Source: Actinomycetota bacterium (lineage in GTDB: Bacteria; Actinomycetota; Actinomycetes; Actinomycetales; Kineosporiaceae). Taken from it: a stretch of DNA of 55,068 nt. Numbering within the stretch: position 1 is the first letter of the stretch; the number at the start of each line of letters is the position of its first letter. The position numbers and the translations under genes are program-made. Location: the NCBI GenBank assembly GCA_030837345.1, contig JAUPKQ010000024.1:1-55068 (forward strand), read 5' to 3'. Below are positions 23,303-33,035 of this stretch, piece by piece. The notes beneath the pieces were generated by a model. The model was not told the DNA's origin. It made no database searches and saw nothing but the letters and a program-made list of their open reading frames with translations.

Positions 23303-24853
23303 CTATCCCCGGACGGCCACCGGCTGCTCGAAGGGGACGATCCCGAAATCGTCGACGTCGTCGTGCCGGGAAGGGACAGCGCGCTCCGTGGCCGCCGGGT
23401 CCGGAACCGCCGGGTCCGGAACCGCCGGGTTCAGGGCCCGGAGGAAGTCCGAGGCCCACCGGCCGACGTCGTGAAGGAAGACCCTGCGGCGCATCGACCG
23501 CATCCGCCGCGCCCGCTCGCGCGCGGGATCGGAGACCGCGCGGACGATGACGTCCTTGAGTCCCTCGATGTCGTGGGGGTTGACCAGGTAGGCGCTGCCG
23601 AGCTCGTTGGCAGCCCCGGTGAACTCGCTGAGGACCAGGGCCCCGCCCTCGTCGTGGCGGCTGGCGACGTACTCCTTCGCCACGAGGTTCATGCCGTCGC
23701 GCAGGGCGGTGACCAGCAGGACGTCCGCCGCGAGGTAGAGCGCCGTCAGCTCGGACCGGGGGAAGGACTGCATCAGGTAGTGCACGACCGGGTTGCCGAT
23801 GTGCCCGTGGACGCCGTTGATCCGGCCGACGATGACCTCGACCTCGTCCCGGAGCACCTGGTAGCTGCCGACCCGCTCCCGGCTCGGCGTCGCGACCTGG
23901 ACGAAGACGGTCTCCTTGGATCCCAGGCGGCCCTCGTCGTACAGCTCGGAGACGGCCTTCAGGCGGTGGAGGATGCCCTTCGTGTAGTCGAGGCGGTCGA
24001 CGCCGAGCAGGATGACCCCCGGGTCGCCGAGCTCGTGGCGGATCTGCTTCGCCCGCTCGAGGATCTCCGGGGTGCGGGCGGCGCGGTCGAGCTCCTCCGT
24101 GTCCACGGAGATGGGGAACGCCGCCGCGCGTACCGCGCGCGTACCGTTCCCGCCGGGTCCCGGGACGACGACGGCGCCCCGGCGGGTCGTCAGCCCGTTG
24201 CGTCGGCAGGCCCGCAGGAAGTTGTTGGCGTCGGCGGGACGCTGGAATCCGAGCAGGTCGGCACCGAGGAGGCCGTCGAGGATCTTCCGGCGCCACGGGA
24301 GCTGCGCGAAGATCTCGTAGGGCGGGAACGGGATGTGGTTGAAGAAACCGATCCGAAGATCCGGCCTGGTCTCCCGGAGCATCATCGGCACGAGCTGGAG
24401 CTGGTAGTCCTGCACCCAGACGGTCGCGCCGATCGCGGCCTGGGCCGCCGTCGCCGTCGCGAACCGCTGGTTGACGGCGACGTAGGACTCCCACCAGGGA
24501 CGGTGGAACTCGGGAGGGACGATGACGTCGTGGTAGAGGGGCCAGAGCGTCCCGTTGGACATCCCCTCGTAGTAGCCCTCGATCTCCTCGGCACTGATCG
24601 GGACCGGGACGAGGTCCATGTTCCCCGCCTCGAAGGGGGGCGGGGCGTCGCCCGGCGCACCCGTCCAGCCGACCCAGGCACCGTCGTGCTCGCGCATGAT
24701 GGGTTCGAGAGCCGTGACCAGTCCACCGGGACTGGTCTGCCAGCTCGTCGTCCCGTCCGGTTCGTCCTTGCGGTCCACCGGCAGCCGGTTCGCCACGACG
24801 ACGAGATCGTCAACCCCGTGAGGAGCCTCGCGGCTGCTTGTCGAAGCAACCAT
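23303..24853 (-). CDS. otsA: Trehalose-6-phosphate synthase
   Basis: Glycosyltransferase family 20 enzyme (516 aa) joining UDP- or GDP/ADP-glucose to glucose-6-phosphate; trehalose is an osmoprotectant and cell-envelope sugar in actinomycetes. Motifs: VVANRLPVD, the G-loop region [41 protein letters not shown], and [10 protein letters not shown]. The C-terminus has an imperfect [12 protein letters not shown] repeat. No otsB phosphatase is adjacent, so the second step is encoded elsewhere. A TAGAGT -10 at 24886-24891 gives a leader of about 25 nt. ATG 24853 is preceded by GGGGA at short spacing. Confidence 0.95.
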
Positions 24854-25078
24854 TCCCCGATCACCCCATTCGGTCGCTCAGGGTGACTCTACCCGCGAGC
24901 CTTCCAGGCAACCTCCGGAGGAGGGGCGCAGGGTGATCACGGTCCGCACACGGCGCCCGTAGCCGGCACCAGGCCACACACGTGCCGGTCCGGGCGTCGT
25001 CACCGGTTGGGAGGCCGCGGCCGGGCAGGCTGATACATCACGCCACAACGGCCGGAAGGAAGGGATGACGGCCGGAGC

Positions 25079-26299
25079 TCACGCCACCGCCCGGCTCTCC
25101 GACTCGACGGAGGACAGCTCGACCGTCGTGGGCTCCGGGCACGCGGCGAGGTCAGGGCCGGAGGCGGTGTCCTCGCCGGCGGTCGCCTGAACCTCGGCCT
25201 CGAGCTCGTGGGCGCTCATCGCCTGCATCGTCGTCCAGGCGATGCCGCAGAGCAGGAGGACGAGGAGCACTCCGACCGCGACGACGGAGGCGAAGCCCGG
25301 CAGGGCCGTCGCCTCGTAGACCACCCAGGACACCGCGGCGGTCGCCGGGATCGTCGCGACCCACGCCGTCACCATCTGGATGATCACGGCCCGGTTCGCC
25401 CCCTGGCCCGAGGCGGTTCCGGCGCCGATCACCGAGGACGCCGCGGCGTGCGTCGTCGAGATCGGGACCCCCAGCGCGGTCGCACCGAAGATCGCCGTCG
25501 TCGCTCCGATGTTGGCCGACACCCCGGTCCGGGCGCTGAGTTTGGTCAGCCGGTTACCCATCGTGTCGATGATCTTCCAGCCACCCCACGCCGTCCCGAC
25601 CGCGATCGCCGCGTAGGAGGCCAGGGCCGCCCACTCCGGCACCGGCAGGGAGGAGGACCCGGCCGTGACGTCGAGATACCCCGCGCCCGCCAGCAGAGCC
25701 GCGATCACACCCATCGTCTTCTGGGCGTCGTTCGCACCGTGCCCGAACGACACGGCCGCCGCCGACAGCAACTGGAGGTACTTGAACGGCTTGGCGTCGT
25801 CCGAGAGCCGCGTCACCCGCTGGATGCCCATGACCAGCCAGGTCGCGACGGCGGCGACCGTCAGGGCGACGGCGGGGGAGGCCACGATCGCGGCCACCGT
25901 CTTCCAGACGCTCCCCCAGCTGACCGCGGAGACTCCTCCCGCGGCCACACCGGCACCCACCAGGCCCCCGATGATCGCGTGTGACGACGAGGACGGCATC
26001 CCGAAATGCCACGTCAGAAAGTTCCAGGCGATCGCCGCGAACAACGCGGCGAAGACGACCGCGACGGTGACATGACCCGGTTTGACTGTTTTGGCGACAG
26101 TATTCGCAACGGCAGTTCCGACAAAGAAGTAGGCAGCGAAGTTGCAGGCCGCCGAGAACCAGACCGCCCATCGAGCGGGCATGGCACGGGTTGCCACCAC
26201 AGTGGCCACCGAGTTCGCCGCGTCATGGAAGCCGTTCGAGAAGTCGAACAGCAACGCCAGGGTCACGACGGAAATGACAATGAGCAGCAGAATGTCCAC
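25079..26299 (-). CDS. pit: Low-affinity inorganic phosphate transporter (PiT)
   Basis: Membrane phosphate:cation symporter (406 aa) with about ten helices and the duplicated PiT signatures: LFDFSNGFHDAANSVATVV near the N-terminus and SFGHGANDAQKTMGVIA in the second half. MPSSSSHAIIGG and PISTTHAAASSVIGAG are the paired helix-hairpin motifs. A polar tail with many Glu and Ser follows. The GTG at 26299 has GGGGAG 6 nt upstream and starts just before helix 1; the frame extending to 26404 adds an unlikely hydrophilic leader. Two PHO-box-like sequences lie upstream (26365-26383 and 26478-26495), suggesting PhoP control. No PhoU-like gene is adjacent. Confidence 0.95.
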   Translation of the reverse strand: MDILLLIVISVVTLALLFDFSNGFHDAANSVATVVATRAMPARWAVWFSAACNFAAYFFVGTAVANTVAKTVKPGHVTVAVVFAALFAAIAWNFLTWHFGMPSSSSHAIIGGLVGAGVAAGGVSAVSWGSVWKTVAAIVASPAVALTVAAVATWLVMGIQRVTRLSDDAKPFKYLQLLSAAAVSFGHGANDAQKTMGVIAALLAGAGYLDVTAGSSSLPVPEWAALASYAAIAVGTAWGGWKIIDTMGNRLTKLSARTGVSANIGATTAIFGATALGVPISTTHAAASSVIGAGTASGQGANRAVIIQMVTAWVATIPATAAVSWVVYEATALPGFASVVAVGVLLVLLLCGIAWTTMQAMSAHELEAEVQATAGEDTASGPDLAACPEPTTVELSSVESESRAVA

Positions 26300-26383: not shown

Positions 26384-26477
26384 TTGCTCTCGCGCGTACG
26401 TCATCGCAGGTAGTCACGCTGCGCTCATCTCCACGACACGGCCGTGTAGTGCGCCGCTAACGTCTGATACAAGGCTC

Positions 26478-26495
26478 GTTCACCTCTCGTTAACT
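26478..26495 (+). promoter_or_regulatory. PHO box upstream of pit
   Basis: GTTCACC-TCTC-GTTAACT: two direct repeats with exactly 11-bp period, the first identical to the actinobacterial PhoP consensus unit. About 180 bp upstream of the pit start, read on the opposite strand. Confidence 0.5.
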
Positions 26496-26881
26496 GCACG
26501 GTCGGCCAAAATTTCATCGCATTGAGGGGCCTCCGGGGCGAGGTCCTTTCATGGTTTACGCGCCACGCCCCCCGGTAATCTTTACATTTCAACACCGGAA
26601 GGATGTCGCGGCCCGGGGCGACCCCGGTCACGGAAGGCCGAACCTCGAAACTCTCCGCCCCACCGCCCTGACTCTCCGATGACTCCCCGAAGGCTCTCCT
26701 GAAGACTCCGCGGAACCCTCCCGCATCTCGTCCCACGACTCGCCTCTCTCCCTCGTCCCGCATCTCGCGGAGTGACGAGGCGCGCAGCAACCATCACCCA
26801 AAGTGAACATCACCTGTCAGAACGGTGATCTGTGCGCCCCTGATTAGTCCCCTCGGCGCCGGGGATGAGAAACTGCCGAGG

Positions 26882-27064
26882 GTGAGCCGTCCCTCTCGTA
26901 AGACGTTCCCCGTCACGGTCACCCGGATGCCGGTCGTGCGCTGCCAGATCTGTGGGCAGAACGTCACCAACCTGCGAGTTCCAGCAGCCGAGGCACTGAC
27001 CGAGCACTATCGCCGGGACCATCCGGAGCTGCTGGGCGACGACGGCTCCTACCACGACGAGTGA
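26882..27064 (+). CDS. Small CxxC/HxxxxH protein, possible zinc finger
   Basis: Short protein (60 aa from GTG 26882; 45 aa if ATG 27 nt-codons later at 26927 is used). The conserved-looking core is MPVVRCQICGQNV followed by EHYRRDHPE: Cys-x2-Cys and, about 17 residues on, His-x4-His, the ligand pattern of a C2H2 zinc finger. It ends with an acidic tail (GDDGSYHDE). I do not recognise the family with certainty; small proteins of this type are common in actinomycetes and may bind nucleic acid or protein. No good ribosome site precedes either start. Codon use fits the genome. Confidence 0.6.
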   Translation: MSRPSRKTFPVTVTRMPVVRCQICGQNVTNLRVPAAEALTEHYRRDHPELLGDDGSYHDE

Positions 27065-27174
27065 CACCCACCGTCACGGTCGCCGGTGGGTCCCCGTAGT
27101 CGTCCCTCCGGGCGGGTCCGGGGTGCCCGTCACCCCAAGGACCTTGGGAGTTCGGCCGGCCGGCTGAGTCCTCG

Positions 27175-27180
27175 TAGGGT
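27175..27180 (+). promoter_or_regulatory. -10 element of tRNA-like gene
   Basis: TAGGGT ends 8 nt before the 5' end of the tRNA-like sequence (27189), so transcription would begin at or next to its first base. A poor -35 (TTCGGC at 27151) is 18 bp upstream. Confidence 0.5.
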
Positions 27181-27188
27181 GAGCTCCT

Positions 27189-27293
27189 GGCCATAGAGGT
27201 CCTGAGGAGAAACGACTCCCGTCGAGGCGGGTGCCTCGAAGCTGCCCGGTGTCGACAGCCAGGCCCGCGGTTCGAGTCCGCGGATGGCCACCA
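27189..27293 (+). ncRNA. tRNA-like RNA gene with non-standard middle region
   Basis: 105-nt element. The 3' half is that of a tRNA: T-arm CCGCGG-TTCGAGT-CCGCGG (27265-27283) with a canonical 7-nt T-loop, then ATGGCC, A and encoded CCA (27291-27293). The 5' end GGCCAT (27189-27194) pairs perfectly with ATGGCC. The usual T8 is absent and the acceptor is 6 bp with a 6-bp T-stem, or 7/5 with an A-G mismatch. The D and anticodon arms cannot be drawn conventionally: a CTCGAAG loop (27235-27241, anticodon CGA, serine-like) is possible but 13 nt too far from the 5' end. A -10 element and a terminator hairpin flank it. Could be a divergent allo-tRNA, a tRNA mimic or a decayed gene. Confidence 0.55.
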
Positions 27294-27309
27294 GTGTCGG
27301 CGAGGTCCG

Positions 27310-27338
27310 CCCGTGAGGGGCTCCGGTCCTCCCACGGG
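27310..27338 (+). terminator. Hairpin after tRNA-like gene
   Basis: CCCGTGAGGGG-N7-CCTCCCACGGG, eleven positions with one mismatch and one G-T pair, 17 nt past the CCA end. No T-run. It also lies in the leader region of the next gene. Confidence 0.55.
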
Positions 27339-27381
27339 TCACCGGGTCCGTCACGGTGTCCGTCAGGCACAATCGCTGTCG

Positions 27382-28029
27382 ATGAGACCTCCGGCGCCGC
27401 GAACAGCACTCCTCGTCGGGCTCCTGCTTGCGCTCGGCGTCGCGGCGCTGACCGTCGACGTCCCGGACGTCGGCGTCGTCCGGGACCAGATCACGGCGGC
27501 GGGTCCGCTCGCCCCGATCCTCTTCGTGGCCGCCTACGCGGTGGTCGTGCCCGCGCCCTTCCCCAAGAGCGTCCTGAGCGCGGCGGCGGGGGTGGCGTTC
27601 GGCCTCCCGCTCGGGGCCGCGCTCGTCCTCGCGGGCGCGACGACCGGCGCAGCCCTCGCCTTCGGCCTCGCACGGGCCCTCGGCCGTGACGCCGTGAACC
27701 GGATGGCCGCCGGGCGCCTCGACCGGGTCGACGACGTGATCGAACGTCACGGAGTCCTCGCCGCCCTGGTGATCCGCTTCATCCCGGTGATGCCGTTCAC
27801 CGTTCTCAACTACGCCTGCGGGGTGACCGTCATGCGCCTGCGGCACTTCGTCGCCGGCACCCTCGTCGGCATCGCTCCGGGCACCACCGTCCACGTCGCC
27901 CTCGGCAGCATGGGGGCCCAGGTGTCGCTCTGGGTGCCGGTCGGCGTCTCCGTCGGGCTCGGACTGGTGTCCCTCCTGATCGGCCTGAACTGGGAACACT
28001 TGCCGTACACGAAGCGCCACTCTCAGTAG
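27382..28029 (+). CDS. TVP38/TMEM64 (DedA-like, SNARE-associated) membrane protein
   Basis: Integral membrane protein of 215 aa with five or six helices. The family hallmarks are the re-entrant region FPKSVLSAAAGVAFGLPLGAA, the GATTGAALAFGLARALGRDAV segment, and RFIPVMPFTVLNYACGVTVMR followed by GIAPGTTVHVALGS. DedA/TVP38 proteins are thought to move lipids such as polyprenyl phosphate or phosphatidylethanolamine across membranes. The ATG at 27382 follows CACAAT (27368-27373) at leaderless distance. The frame extending upstream to 27313 runs through the terminator hairpin of the tRNA-like gene and is not used. Confidence 0.85.
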   Translation: MRPPAPRTALLVGLLLALGVAALTVDVPDVGVVRDQITAAGPLAPILFVAAYAVVVPAPFPKSVLSAAAGVAFGLPLGAALVLAGATTGAALAFGLARALGRDAVNRMAAGRLDRVDDVIERHGVLAALVIRFIPVMPFTVLNYACGVTVMRLRHFVAGTLVGIAPGTTVHVALGSMGAQVSLWVPVGVSVGLGLVSLLIGLNWEHLPYTKRHSQ

Positions 28030-28184: not shown

Positions 28185-29489
28185 ATGTCCGGCTCTGACC
28201 ATGCCCCGGTCGGCGTCCCCCACCCCGTAGGGCGAGGGACTCCGACGAGCCCCGGGACCACGGAAGAGGCGGACCGGTGGCGACCTCTGAACACCGCACG
28301 CGCCCTGGCCGTGCCGGTGCTCGTCGTCGCGGTCCTCGCTCCCTACGCCCTCGCGCTGTCGGGGCTCTGGACGAGCATCGGGGACGACCTCGACGCCACC
28401 CACCTCGAGCGGTCTGGCGTCGTGGCCTTCCGCCCGCTGATCCGGCTGATCGCCGCCACCGCCAACGCGCAGAGCACCGCCGTCGCGGGTGATCCCCTCG
28501 ACGTCACCGCGCTCCGGGCCGCGATGGCCGAGACGGACTCCGCCGACGCGAAGGTCGGTGGTGCCCTCGGGATGGACCGGCGGTGGACCGATGTCCGCTC
28601 CCGTCTGGAGCACCTGATCTCGTCCACCCCGACGAGCTCGGCGGCCTACACCTCGTTCAGCCAGGTGATCGACCTGGAGAACGCCCTGCTCGCCGCCGTC
28701 GTCGACTCGTCCCGGCTCCGCGTCGACCCCCAGCTCGACGTCCACTACCTCGTCGAGGCCGCCGGGACGCACGTGCCGGAGATCCTCCTGACGGCCGGAC
28801 GGATCAACGACCTGACGCTGCTCGTCGAACGCCGGCGTTCCGCGGCACGGGCCGACACGATCACTGTCGTCGTCGCCCAGTCCGAGATGCGCCAGGCCGC
28901 GGACCGCATGGACAACAGCCTGCGCAAGGGGTTCGACACCAGTTCGAGCCGGACCCTCGGCCCCGCCCTGCTGCGGGAACTCGACAAGTTACGGGACGCC
29001 ATCGCCGCCATGGCACCTCCGATGCAAGGCATCGGCTCGATGCCCGACGTACCGAGCGGCACCGTCACCAAGGTGGCGAGCCAGCAGCTCCGGGGCGCCG
29101 CGATCGAGACCGAGACGGCGGCCCTCGACCAGCTCGACGATCTGCTGCGCCTTCGGGCCGGCAGCCTGTCCGGCGAGCGGCGGACACAACTCACCATCAG
29201 CGTCACAGGCCTCGTCCTCGCCGTCGTGGCGTTGGTCCTCCTCGCCCCCGGACGTCGCCGGGCCACCCGCGTGGAGCGGATCCCGGTACCGATGGATCCG
29301 GCGTCCCCGCAGACCATCCCGCCGGACGGGCCCGCGCGGTCCTCCGGCGCACGGCACCGGGAACCGGGCGACCTGCTGGGAGCGCACGAACTGTTCGAAG
29401 GACAACAGATGATCAAGGTCGGCAGAACGATCACCTCGAGTACGTCGAGGCGGAAGGAGGCGGCGACCCCGTCCGAGGAGGACCGGTGA
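28185..29489 (+). CDS. NIT-type sensor protein without kinase domain
   Basis: Membrane receptor-like protein (434 aa). One helix (LAVPVLVVAVLAPYALALSG) near residue 40, about 280 mostly helical extracytoplasmic residues, a second helix ([19 protein letters not shown]) near residue 350, and a polar, Pro-rich cytoplasmic tail. The external region resembles nitrate/nitrite-sensing (NIT) four-helix domains and the sensory half of the kinase encoded next, but there is no HAMP or catalytic domain. Its stop overlaps the kinase start as GTGA, so the two are made together. I infer a co-receptor. GGAGGAAGG lies 11 nt before ATG 28185. Similarity to NIT is judged from layout, not an alignment. Confidence 0.75.
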   Translation: MSGSDHAPVGVPHPVGRGTPTSPGTTEEADRWRPLNTARALAVPVLVVAVLAPYALALSGLWTSIGDDLDATHLERSGVVAFRPLIRLIAATANAQSTAVAGDPLDVTALRAAMAETDSADAKVGGALGMDRRWTDVRSRLEHLISSTPTSSAAYTSFSQVIDLENALLAAVVDSSRLRVDPQLDVHYLVEAAGTHVPEILLTAGRINDLTLLVERRRSAARADTITVVVAQSEMRQAADRMDNSLRKGFDTSSSRTLGPALLRELDKLRDAIAAMAPPMQGIGSMPDVPSGTVTKVASQQLRGAAIETETAALDQLDDLLRLRAGSLSGERRTQLTISVTGLVLAVVALVLLAPGRRRATRVERIPVPMDPASPQTIPPDGPARSSGARHREPGDLLGAHELFEGQQMIKVGRTITSSTSRRKEAATPSEEDR

Positions 29490-32242
29490 TCCTTCGTCGT
29501 CGTCGCCCCGCCGTCCGGGAGCGCGTCAATCTCCTGGCTGTCATCCCCCTCCTGGTCGTCGTGCTCCTCGCCATCCCGCTGCTGAGCGCACGGCTCGACG
29601 AGGCCAGGGCCGCCGCCGCCGCGAACCGCTCGGCCGCCGCCGCGGGCCGGGTCAGCTCCCTGATCGAGATGATTCAGCGGACCAGGCTCCTCTCCGTCGC
29701 CTTCACGAGCACGTCCGAGGTCGCTCCCAACACCCTGACGGTCCAGCTCCAGGAGATCGAGCAGCGGCGGGCGGAACTCGTCGCCGACCCGGCGATCATC
29801 GAGCTGCCCAGCCTGCGCGACGCCCTCGACCGTCTCCAGCTCGACTACGTCGGCACGAGCGTCCTCACCGGCTGGGGTTCCGACCTCCAGGCCGTCGAGG
29901 ACTACGGCGCCATCGTCGAAGGGCTCGTCGACGCGCTCGCCCTCAACGGCAACACCCTTGTCGACAGGGAGGGCGCGGCCACCCTGGAAACCCTCGACAC
30001 CCTGCTGCGCTCCGACGAGGCCGCGAGCAAGCGGACCGCGATGCTCCTGCTGGCGTCGACCAACCCGACCAACCGCGAGCGCGCCCTGACGTCCGCCCGG
30101 GAGATGGGCATCCTCGCGAACGTCACGGCCGCCCAGTTCCGCCGGATCGCCCGGGCCTCGGACACGGCACTCTTCACCCTCGCCGACGGCGGTCCGACGG
30201 CGAAACGGCTCGTGGCGGCGGAGTCCGTCCTCACCGCGGCGGGCCCTCGCACCGAGACCTCCGACCGGCTGGCCGCCGAGGTCCTGGCGGCAGGGCAGGC
30301 CCAGACGGAGATCCGCCAGCTCGTCGAGAGCCGGATCGCCCGGGAGGCCGTGGAACGCGCCGAAAGCGACCTGAGCGGCGCCTGGTGGACGACGATGACG
30401 CTCAGCGGGCTGGGGCTCGCGTTCCTCGCGCTCGTCCTCGGCCTGTCCGTCATCGTGGGCCGCTCGGTCACCCGGCCGCTGCAGAGCCTGACCGTCGCCG
30501 CCGGCCGGGTCGCCGACCTCGCGCAGGCGGAGCTGCTCCACGTCGTGGACGAGGACGCCCAGGAGGCCCGGGCACCCCGGCTCGCCGCGATCGACGTCCG
30601 CAGCGAGGACGAGATCGGCGAGCTCGCCACCGCGTTCAACCGGGTGCAGGCCACCGCCGCACTGCTGCTGGAACGCCAGGTGACCAGCCGCCGCAACGTC
30701 GCCGCGATGTTCGCGAGCATGGGACGTCGCACGTCCAACCTCGTCGGCCGTCAGCTCGCCCTGATCGACAACCTGGAACGGGCCGAGGAGGACCCGGAGA
30801 CCCTCGCGACGCTCTACCGCCTCGACCACACCGCCACCCGGCTCCGGCGCAGCGCCAGCAGCCTCGTCATCCTGTCGGGCGGGACGGAGAGTCTCGGCGA
30901 GGGACAGCCGATGACGATCGGGGACGTCGTCCGCGCCGCTCTCGGGACGGTCGAGGGCTACCAGCGCGTCACCCTGCAGCAGGTGCCCATGCTGTGGGTG
31001 AGCCCCGGGACGGTGGGTGACCTCTCGCTGTTGCTCGCGGAACTGCTCGACAACGCGTTGTCGTTCTCCCCGCCCCGAACCAAGGTCGAGGTGGCGGGCG
31101 GCATGTCCGTCGGGGGCGGGTGCGTCATCTCGGTCACCGACCACGGGATGGGCATACCGGAGGCGCGGCTGGCCGAGGAGAACGGCCGTCTGCGACACCG
31201 GGAGCGGCTCGACCTCGCACCGACCGACCTCCTCGGGCTCTTCGTCGTCGGCCGGATCTCACGCCGTCACGGGATCGACGTCCACCTGACGACGACCCCC
31301 GGCTCCGGGCTCACAGCCGTCGTCACGCTGTCCGCCGCCCTCATGGTCGACGGCCCCGCCGCCATCCCCCCACGGGGTCCCGTACGGGCTCCCACCGCCG
31401 TCCCGGAGCAGCAGGCCCCGGACGGGCCGGTCCCCGCCGAGACCCCGGCCGGACGGACGCCGAACGGTCTCCCCCGTCGGGGGAAGGCGCCTGCCGGAGA
31501 GATACCCGTTCCAGCCTCGTCCCCGTCCGGCTCCGCCCAGGCCCCGGACGACGGGATCGCGAGCGATCGTCAGCTCGCCGCGCTCACGGGCTGGTCGGCG
31601 CCCCAGCCCCCGTCGCCGGCGGAACCGCCGGTCCCCGCGCAACCGCCGGTCCCCGCGCAACCGCCGGTCCCTGGTCAGCCGTCCGCGGGGCAACCCGGCG
31701 GCGGGCTCGTCCGGCGGGTGCGCGGCAGAAGCCTCGCAGGGCTCGGGCTGGGAGCGGACGCTCCGCCGAGCCCGTCGTCGGCGCCGCGGCCCATCGACGC
31801 GGACGCCCTCCGGAAGGAACTCATCGACGTCGAGGCGGCGGTCGACCGTGCCCGGCGTCCACCGGCCGGCGGGACAGACGCCCCTCCCGACGCGACGCCC
31901 ACGCCTCCCGAGGGGACGGACATGGCGAGGAGGGTCCCGGGCAGGGCGCTCCGCGACTTCGACCGGGTGTTCGTACCGTCCCGGGAGTACCGCGCCCGCT
32001 TGGACGACGGCGCTACTCCCGGCGGGTTGGTACGGCGGGTGCGAGGTGCGAGCCTCACCACCGACCCGGAGGGGCCGGGGATCCCGGCCGGAGGACCGAC
32101 GGACAAAGATGTCCCCACCGGATCCATTGCCCTCGTTCCGGAACGCCCCGAAGATGTGCTCGCCTGGACCAAAGGCCTGGAGGCGGCCATGGACAGGCTT
32201 GCCCCGGGTGACGAGCGGCAGAACGCAGAAGGAGATCGCTGA
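29486..32242 (+). CDS. cvnA: Conservon sensor kinase CvnA (NIT-HAMP-HATPase)
   Basis: Membrane kinase-like protein, 918 aa. Helix 1 (14-34), external NIT domain (about 40-295), helix 2 (304-325), HAMP (326-395), a helical region with RLDHTATRLRRSASSL (His448, the family counterpart of the phospho-acceptor), and a HATPase domain with ELLDNALSFSPP and DHGMGI (552-557). A Pro-rich tail of 300 residues follows, with PPVPAQ repeats and three copies of a basic motif: LVRRVRGRSL (about 742), MARRVPGRAL and LVRRVRGASL. Conservon kinases signal to CvnB, CvnC and the GTPase CvnD rather than to a response regulator. The GTG has GGAGGA 5 nt upstream. Confidence 0.9.
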   Translation: MILRRRRPAVRERVNLLAVIPLLVVVLLAIPLLSARLDEARAAAAANRSAAAAGRVSSLIEMIQRTRLLSVAFTSTSEVAPNTLTVQLQEIEQRRAELVADPAIIELPSLRDALDRLQLDYVGTSVLTGWGSDLQAVEDYGAIVEGLVDALALNGNTLVDREGAATLETLDTLLRSDEAASKRTAMLLLASTNPTNRERALTSAREMGILANVTAAQFRRIARASDTALFTLADGGPTAKRLVAAESVLTAAGPRTETSDRLAAEVLAAGQAQTEIRQLVESRIAREAVERAESDLSGAWWTTMTLSGLGLAFLALVLGLSVIVGRSVTRPLQSLTVAAGRVADLAQAELLHVVDEDAQEARAPRLAAIDVRSEDEIGELATAFNRVQATAALLLERQVTSRRNVAAMFASMGRRTSNLVGRQLALIDNLERAEEDPETLATLYRLDHTATRLRRSASSLVILSGGTESLGEGQPMTIGDVVRAALGTVEGYQRVTLQQVPMLWVSPGTVGDLSLLLAELLDNALSFSPPRTKVEVAGGMSVGGGCVISVTDHGMGIPEARLAEENGRLRHRERLDLAPTDLLGLFVVGRISRRHGIDVHLTTTPGSGLTAVVTLSAALMVDGPAAIPPRGPVRAPTAVPEQQAPDGPVPAETPAGRTPNGLPRRGKAPAGEIPVPASSPSGSAQAPDDGIASDRQLAALTGWSAPQPPSPAEPPVPAQPPVPAQPPVPGQPSAGQPGGGLVRRVRGRSLAGLGLGADAPPSPSSAPRPIDADALRKELIDVEAAVDRARRPPAGGTDAPPDATPTPPEGTDMARRVPGRALRDFDRVFVPSREYRARLDDGATPGGLVRRVRGASLTTDPEGPGIPAGGPTDKDVPTGSIALVPERPEDVLAWTKGLEAAMDRLAPGDERQNAEGDR

Positions 32243-32676
32243 TGACCGAGACCAGATTCGGGCTGAGCGAACAGGCCCAGGACTTCACCTGGCTGTTGGC
32301 CCGATTCGCGCAGGACACTGCGGGAGTGATCGATGTCATCGCCGTGTCGTCGGACGGCCTGTTAATGGCCTCGGCCGGGGACGCCGACCGTGCGAGCAGC
32401 GACCGGCTGTCGGCGATCGTCTCGGGGATCGTCAGCCTCGCCGGCGGCGCGGGGTCGAGCTACGGACTCGGCCCTCTGAACAAGGTGATCGTGGACGCCG
32501 AGGGTGGATTCCTCGTCGTGATGGCGATGGGCGCGGGGGCTCTGCTCGGCGTCGTCGCCGAGCGGAGCGCGTCGCTCAGCACGGTGGCGTACGAGGCCGC
32601 GTTGTTCATCAACCGCACCAACGGGATGCTCAACCCCCAGCTGATCAATGAGTTGAAGAACTCGGTTTCCGGATGA
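32242..32676 (+). CDS. cvnB: Roadblock/LC7 protein CvnB
   Basis: Cytoplasmic protein of 144 aa of the roadblock/LC7 fold, second component of conservons. Such proteins usually act as regulators of a small Ras-like GTPase. Recognisable are LSEQAQDFTWLLARFAQDT, VIDVIAVSSDGLLMA, and the central LSAIVSGIVSLAGGAG. ATG 32242 overlaps the kinase stop by one base (TGATG) with GGAGA upstream. Its usual partner GTPase CvnD is not encoded here. Confidence 0.93.
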   Translation: MTETRFGLSEQAQDFTWLLARFAQDTAGVIDVIAVSSDGLLMASAGDADRASSDRLSAIVSGIVSLAGGAGSSYGLGPLNKVIVDAEGGFLVVMAMGAGALLGVVAERSASLSTVAYEAALFINRTNGMLNPQLINELKNSVSG

Positions 32677-33035
32677 CAGGACGCTTCGACGAGAGGCCGG
32701 GGGGATCTCTGATCCGGCCGTTCCTGCTCACCGCGGGCCGCACGGCGGACGCCGGTGCCATCCCCATCGAGACCCAGGTGATCGCGACCTCCAAGGCGGG
32801 GACCGCGGTCGGCACCCTGGCCTTCGAGTACCACGACATCGTCACGCTGTGTGCCGAGCCGATGGCCGTGGCGGAGATCGCCGCGCGATTGCGGTTGCAC
32901 CTCGGTGTCACCCGCGTCCTCGTCACCGACCTTCAGCGACAGGGCATGGTGACGGCGTATCTCCCCCAGACCGATCCCCGCGATGACGTGGACATGATCG
33001 TCAGAGTGATCAACGGCCTGCGCCGGCAGATCTGA
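32673..33035 (+). CDS. cvnC: DUF742 protein CvnC
   Basis: Third conservon component (120 aa), a winged-helix-like DUF742 protein: SLIRPFLLTAGRT at the N-terminus, then LAFEYHDIVTLCAEPMAVAEIAARLRLHLGVTRVLVTDLQRQGMVT. These proteins are assumed to mediate contacts between CvnB and CvnD. ATG overlaps the cvnB stop as ATGA. The operon ends here; in standard conservons the GTPase gene cvnD would follow within a few bases, but the next 245 bp are non-coding and the next gene is a secreted deacetylase. Confidence 0.92.
   Translation: MTGRFDERPGGSLIRPFLLTAGRTADAGAIPIETQVIATSKAGTAVGTLAFEYHDIVTLCAEPMAVAEIAARLRLHLGVTRVLVTDLQRQGMVTAYLPQTDPRDDVDMIVRVINGLRRQI

Follow-up and report, generated by a model that had tools for sequence, protein, structure and literature searches.

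A putative non-decoding tRNA-like RNA conserved across genera of the Kineosporiaceae

A 55,068-nt stretch of DNA from a member of the Kineosporiaceae (the window) carries a tRNA-like RNA gene at nt 27189–27293 (+), in which a 6-bp acceptor stem is stacked on a 6-bp T-arm. We regard it as probable that the gene yields an independently transcribed, lineage-specific small RNA that does not decode and whose shape copies the upper part of a type-II tRNA. Comparison of the homologues shows a 12-bp stack, a T-loop, a variable arm, a single-stranded AGAGGTCC, and dispensable hairpins in the places of the D- and anticodon arms. A sequence-only reading of this DNA had described an expressed-looking tRNA-like gene with an odd cloverleaf. 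That description stands, but it had missed the long variable arm at nt 27244–27264.

All parts of the RNA lie on the (+) strand, and single bases are given below by their tRNA-style positions in this RNA. The 5′ strand of the acceptor, GGCCAT (nt 27189–27194), pairs with ATGGCC (nt 27284–27289), which is followed by the discriminator A (nt 27290) and CCA (nt 27291–27293); the stem and the A are conserved. The T-arm, CCGCGG-TTCGAGT-CCGCGG (nt 27265–27283), has 6 bp and is invariant in all five homologues. Acceptor and T-arm form one 12-bp stack with the canonical T-loop TTCGAGT, that is, the 12-bp branch (6+6 bp) and TTCRANY loop of a tRNA. The long variable arm, directly 5′ of the T-arm, has an invariant outer GCC/GGC and a changing inner helix. 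The linker AGAGGTCC (nt 27195–27202), identical in five of five homologues, occupies the place where a tRNA has U8-A9 and its D-stem begins. Hairpin 1, GGAG-AAACGA-CTCC (nt 27206–27219), is in the D-arm position, and hairpin 2, CGAGGC-GGGT-GCCTCG (nt 27223–27238), in the anticodon-arm position. Four homologues keep hairpin 1; one, the shorter RNA of genome G001, lacks both. The acceptor, T-arm, discriminator and CCA, together with the -10 TAGGGT and the hairpin that follows the gene, are all where the sequence-only reading had placed them, and the 6+6 split, the missing U8 and the two hairpins that it pointed out are real, the hairpins being conserved in four homologues.

A motif scan for the T-arm, a 6-bp acceptor and CC found one site in the window, the tRNA-like RNA, and none in 60 Markov-shuffled windows. 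Folding energy taken by itself is weak evidence: z was -2.1 for the exact RNA and -1.0 when the ends were set slightly differently. Given the homologues, the tRNA-like fold at nt 27189–27293 is not due to chance.

The genome carrying the window is 4.35 Mb, and the family set comprised 13 genomes of the Kineosporiaceae. A DNA search of this set found homologues with 77–78% identity in Kineosporia sp. A_224 (G010), Kineosporia sp. R_H_3 (G011) and an actinobacterial MAG (G012), and the limits of the similarity were the limits of the tRNA-like fold. The shorter homologue was found in G001. Strain A_224 is assigned to the Kineosporiaceae (PMC5552984). The five homologues are thus the window RNA and these four, and three of the five sequences are close to one another. 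A covariance model made from four of the five scored all five RNAs at 54–130 bits, with the next best near 30 bits. The model matches in other genomes, at about 26–32 bits, were ordinary tRNAs, or were not tRNA-like and were judged to be chance. Searches of about 395 genomes each of the order, class and phylum, under stricter filters, gave no further member, and those of plasmids, phages and viral contigs gave nothing relevant to the RNA. One pattern match in an "Acidobacteria" MAG (L045) lies inside a PHP-domain-like reading frame and was set aside as chance. Since the RNA is found in at least three genera and no member was seen among the genomes of the order, class and phylum, it is a lineage-specific element of one family. 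Flanks of 700 nt on either side show no comparable similarity between genera except in the promoter region, whereas the RNA aligns. This conservation of the RNA and its promoter between diverged flanks indicates that the RNA is under selection.

The compensatory changes that the sequence-only reading proposed to look for in relatives were found in the acceptor, hairpin 2 and the variable arm. The acceptor common to all five RNAs is GGCC[A/G]T...A[C/T]GGCC, with 6 bp, and its fifth pair is A-U or G-C among the homologues. The fifth pair of hairpin 2 is G-C in the window RNA and A-U in Kineosporia. The inner helix of the variable arm is GGT/GCC in the window RNA, TCCC/GGGA in Kineosporia and TCC/GGA in G001. 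For some relatives the minimum-energy fold of the whole molecule is an alternative one, and the variable arm appears in the centroid fold or on folding its segment by itself. In the proposed structure 107 of 107 countable cells are standard pairs, against 34–48% when the pairing partners are shifted by 1–3 columns. The shuffle control of the covariation tool was not strongly exceeded, with five sequences of which three are close. Only a few independent changes are available, and the support that covariation lends to these three helices is therefore good but not overwhelming. A7 and G66 are unpaired in five of five RNAs, and the 12-bp branch is therefore split 6/6 in all of them. The segment GCTGCC is likewise invariant throughout.

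The RNA is very unlikely to decode, judging from these alignments. ARAGORN and Rfam each identified no tRNA or tmRNA in the window, and a search of the whole genome with RF00005 returned 39 other tRNA genes and missed the tRNA-like RNA. The canonical marks of a tRNA, U8, a D-loop GG and a 7-nt anticodon loop with U33, are missing. The bases after the acceptor are A-G where a tRNA has U8, and the loop of hairpin 1, AAACGA or AAAGAA, has no GG. The loop of hairpin 2 has 4–6 nt in the window RNA and 7, 7 and 8 nt in the three Kineosporia-group copies, differs in sequence between lineages and has U33 in none of them. In G001 the whole RNA is 68 nt, and hairpins 1 and 2 are cleanly absent. Decoding is very unlikely because the hairpin-2 loop varies in length and sequence without U33 and the arm is absent in G001. 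A CTCGAAG anticodon loop, as formerly suggested, is made up of the 3′ strand of hairpin 2 and a conserved AAG linker. The serine CGA anticodon that it was to carry has to be given up as well, with a varying loop, an arm missing from G001, an A73 where tRNA-Ser has G73, and an ordinary tRNA-Ser(CGA) already among the 39 tRNA genes.

The discriminator is A in the tRNA-like RNA, G73 in all four tRNA-Ser genes of the genome and A73 in tRNA-Leu. With A73 and the long variable arm the RNA is nearer to tRNA-Leu than to tRNA-Ser. CCA is encoded in the window copy only, and the relatives have CTG or CCC. The RNAs of the relatives may nevertheless have a CCA end, since only 11 of the 39 tRNAs here encode CCA.

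A -10 element, TAGGGT (nt 27175–27180, +), precedes the gene; TAGGGT or TAGCGT stands 6–8 nt before G1 in five of five homologues. Transcription is predicted to start on the first base of the RNA or no more than about 2 nt from it. What suggests that the RNA is expressed is the conservation of this promoter. A further box, AAGGACCTTGG (nt 27137–27147, +; GGGACCTTCG in the relatives), is present in all five homologues and is a possible activator site. This GGACCTT box lies about 35–38 nt upstream of the -10, at a similar distance in all five. Its likeness to one half of a DosR/OsdR-type site is a lead only, as is a further copy in G011 in front of a gene for a NarL-type response regulator. GGGACCTTCGNCC is modestly enriched in the five genomes (25 sites versus 8 for the reversed control), and some of the sites are part of an element before rplJ, so that an assignment as a DosR-type box was not adopted. 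This element, a conserved leader of rplJ (ribosomal protein L10), was noted to contain GGGACCTTCGNCC at L122, L123, L135, L139 and L143. A terminator-like hairpin without a T run is predicted at nt 27309–27339 (+). Against shuffles the 3′ hairpin is not better in the window (z -0.5), reaches z -5.8 after the Kineosporia copy and is unconvincing in G001; a terminator is not clear in every copy of the locus.

The divergent neighbour of the RNA encodes a Pit inorganic phosphate transporter (nt 25079–26299, -; Pfam PHO4, 2e-77), with a start at nt 26299 suggested by VDILLL. The Pit genes beside the RNA in G001, G010 and G011 are 62–65% identical to that of the window. In three genera the Pit gene is divergent from the RNA and about 0.8–1.3 kb away; the contig of G012 does not extend far enough to include it. 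The genes between Pit and the RNA, and those downstream of the RNA, differ between genera. With the same Pit neighbour in three genera, the RNA locus is orthologous. The Pit gene also adjoins trehalose genes, otsA in the window (Pit and otsA within nt 23303–26299) and otsB in G001 (within L040 10854–14748), a further sign of orthology. No RNA copy was found within the 1.5 kb examined around the closest Pit genes of G002 (65–66% identical). Antisense pairing of the RNA with the Pit leader is not special at the window locus (rank 30 of 44). The sequence GTTCACCTCTCGTTAACT upstream of Pit (nt 26474–26503) has the look of a direct repeat bound by PhoP (PHO-box), which makes regulation of Pit by phosphate probable; repeats of this kind also stand before further Pit genes in the family (L082). 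The interval from Pit to the RNA holds a small, zinc-finger-like reading frame, CQICGQ...H...H (nt 26882–27064), with no Pfam match and not common to the loci of the relatives. Farther along, nt 28583–33035 hold a NIT/HAMP histidine kinase, a roadblock protein and a DUF742 protein in a row, the typical actinobacterial "conservon" layout.

Several known systems share features with this RNA. The tmRNA (SsrA) also has a tRNA upper half with the lower half replaced. It has a tag reading frame, however, whereas the RNAs here are 68–105 nt with no conserved frame by eye and no ARAGORN or Rfam match, and are not tmRNA. The bacterial Y RNA YrlA, a non-coding RNA, contains a tRNA-like module; here the ends of the RNA itself form the acceptor, and Rfam gave no match. 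The mascRNA/menRNA are also small tRNA-like RNAs without a decoding anticodon and align weakly at the T-arm, but the score of 13.9 bits (E 4.4), where the gathering score is 42.5, excludes membership. Selenocysteine tRNA, with its 8/5 or related branch, long variable arm and UCA anticodon, was likewise rejected: the branch is 6/6, no loop has UCA and Rfam gave no match. Nearest in shape are the irregular allo-tRNA-like RNAs (Mukai et al. 2017, reviewed in PMC7609411), which likewise have a 12-bp acceptor/T branch and a long variable arm. Some of them have an extra loop between the acceptor and the D-stem. They are unusable in E. coli translation, and the allo-tRNA hosts named in the review are Clostridia, Proteobacteria and Acidobacteria (PMC7609411). 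Allo-tRNAs are split 8/4 or 9/3; here the split is 6/6, the lower half is variable or missing, and no transposon link was seen. For seryl or alanyl identity, G73 with a long variable arm or G3-U70 is expected; the variable arm is present, but with A73 and C3-G70. Membership fails because of the 6/6 geometry and the discriminator. The sequence-only reading had already held that the layout is neither 8/4 nor 9/3, and the homologues, all 6/6, and their compensatory changes strengthen this. Nearest in likely role is the Bacillus cereus pseudo-tRNA tRNA-Other, judged inactive in translation, with its own regulation and found in one bacterial group (PMC3399842). Both are tRNA-like and restricted to one bacterial group, and the fold here is conserved in five homologues, as fits a pseudo-tRNA of that type. 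tRNA-Other has a Trp anticodon and lies within a much longer transcript, whereas here there is no usable anticodon and a predicted promoter stands at the first base. For all the likeness, the RNA is a member neither of the allo-tRNA-like RNAs nor of tRNA-Other.

The RNA might instead be a donor of amino acids outside the ribosome, charged by a synthetase that ignores the anticodon, LeuRS fitting best. Bacterial LeuRS is independent of the anticodon, and the acceptor/T/variable-arm domain is complete, with the A73 of the genome's tRNA-Leu and not the G73 of its tRNA-Ser. SerRS also ignores the anticodon (PMC7609411). Relatives have no encoded CCA, although the CCA enzyme could add it, as it would for the tRNAs of this genome beyond the 11 of 39. 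We hold the donor role to be doubtful, and regulation or a decoy function is preferred, since the scan of neighbouring genes turned up no tRNA-dependent transferase. An extension of this idea, somewhat more speculative still, is a new family of leaderless tRNAs that are regulated, do not decode and have acceptor, T- and variable arms only, charged by an anticodon-blind synthetase for a non-ribosomal reaction while the anticodon domain is being lost.

A decayed tRNA gene, or what is left of an element integrated at one, could account for a 3′ end that resembles that of a tRNA, and such fragments exist in the family. L067 (G010:C144:7240-7321) shows a 3′ terminus like that of tRNA-Phe but is not called as a full tRNA; it is probably an integration or decay remnant and serves as a contrast case. 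Conservation and compensatory changes over three genera make this reading improbable here. The homology to a normal tRNA named earlier as a sign against the gene was not seen either: no close source was found among the 39 tRNA genes (best 25/34 nt at the 3′ end, CCA-less tRNAs being compared roughly), nor an integrase among the scanned neighbours. That the RNA serves in translation as an irregular tRNA similar to the allo-tRNAs, its anticodon arm being hairpin 2, is in our judgement very improbable. Two Kineosporia-group copies do have a 5-bp hairpin 2 with a 7-nt loop, and hairpin 1 resembles a D-stem of 4 bp, but U33, U8 and the GG are all lacking, G001 has no arm, the loop varies in length and sequence even among close species, and the ordinary tRNA-Ser(CGA) is present. 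It is hardly credible that the RNA is a cis-acting leader or attenuator of the VTT-domain protein gene (nt 27382–28029, +), which in the window begins 89 nt downstream on the same strand; the downstream gene is different in each genus and on the opposite strand in Kineosporia.

Under the favoured reading, that of a non-decoding mimic, transcription would begin at or beside the first base, and the tRNA-like top would be bound by a protein that reads tRNA, such as the CCA-adding enzyme, RNase P, EF-Tu or a synthetase. The RNA would be stable and serve in regulation or as a decoy, the exposed linker and the hairpins forming a variable effector part. Non-decoding tRNA mimics are known from few bacterial examples, and the probable one described here is conserved in three genera. 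The anticodon domain drifts visibly and has gone from one lineage, and the promoter suggests regulation. The RNA offers a natural way of finding out which tRNA-binding proteins can act when only the upper half of a tRNA is present.
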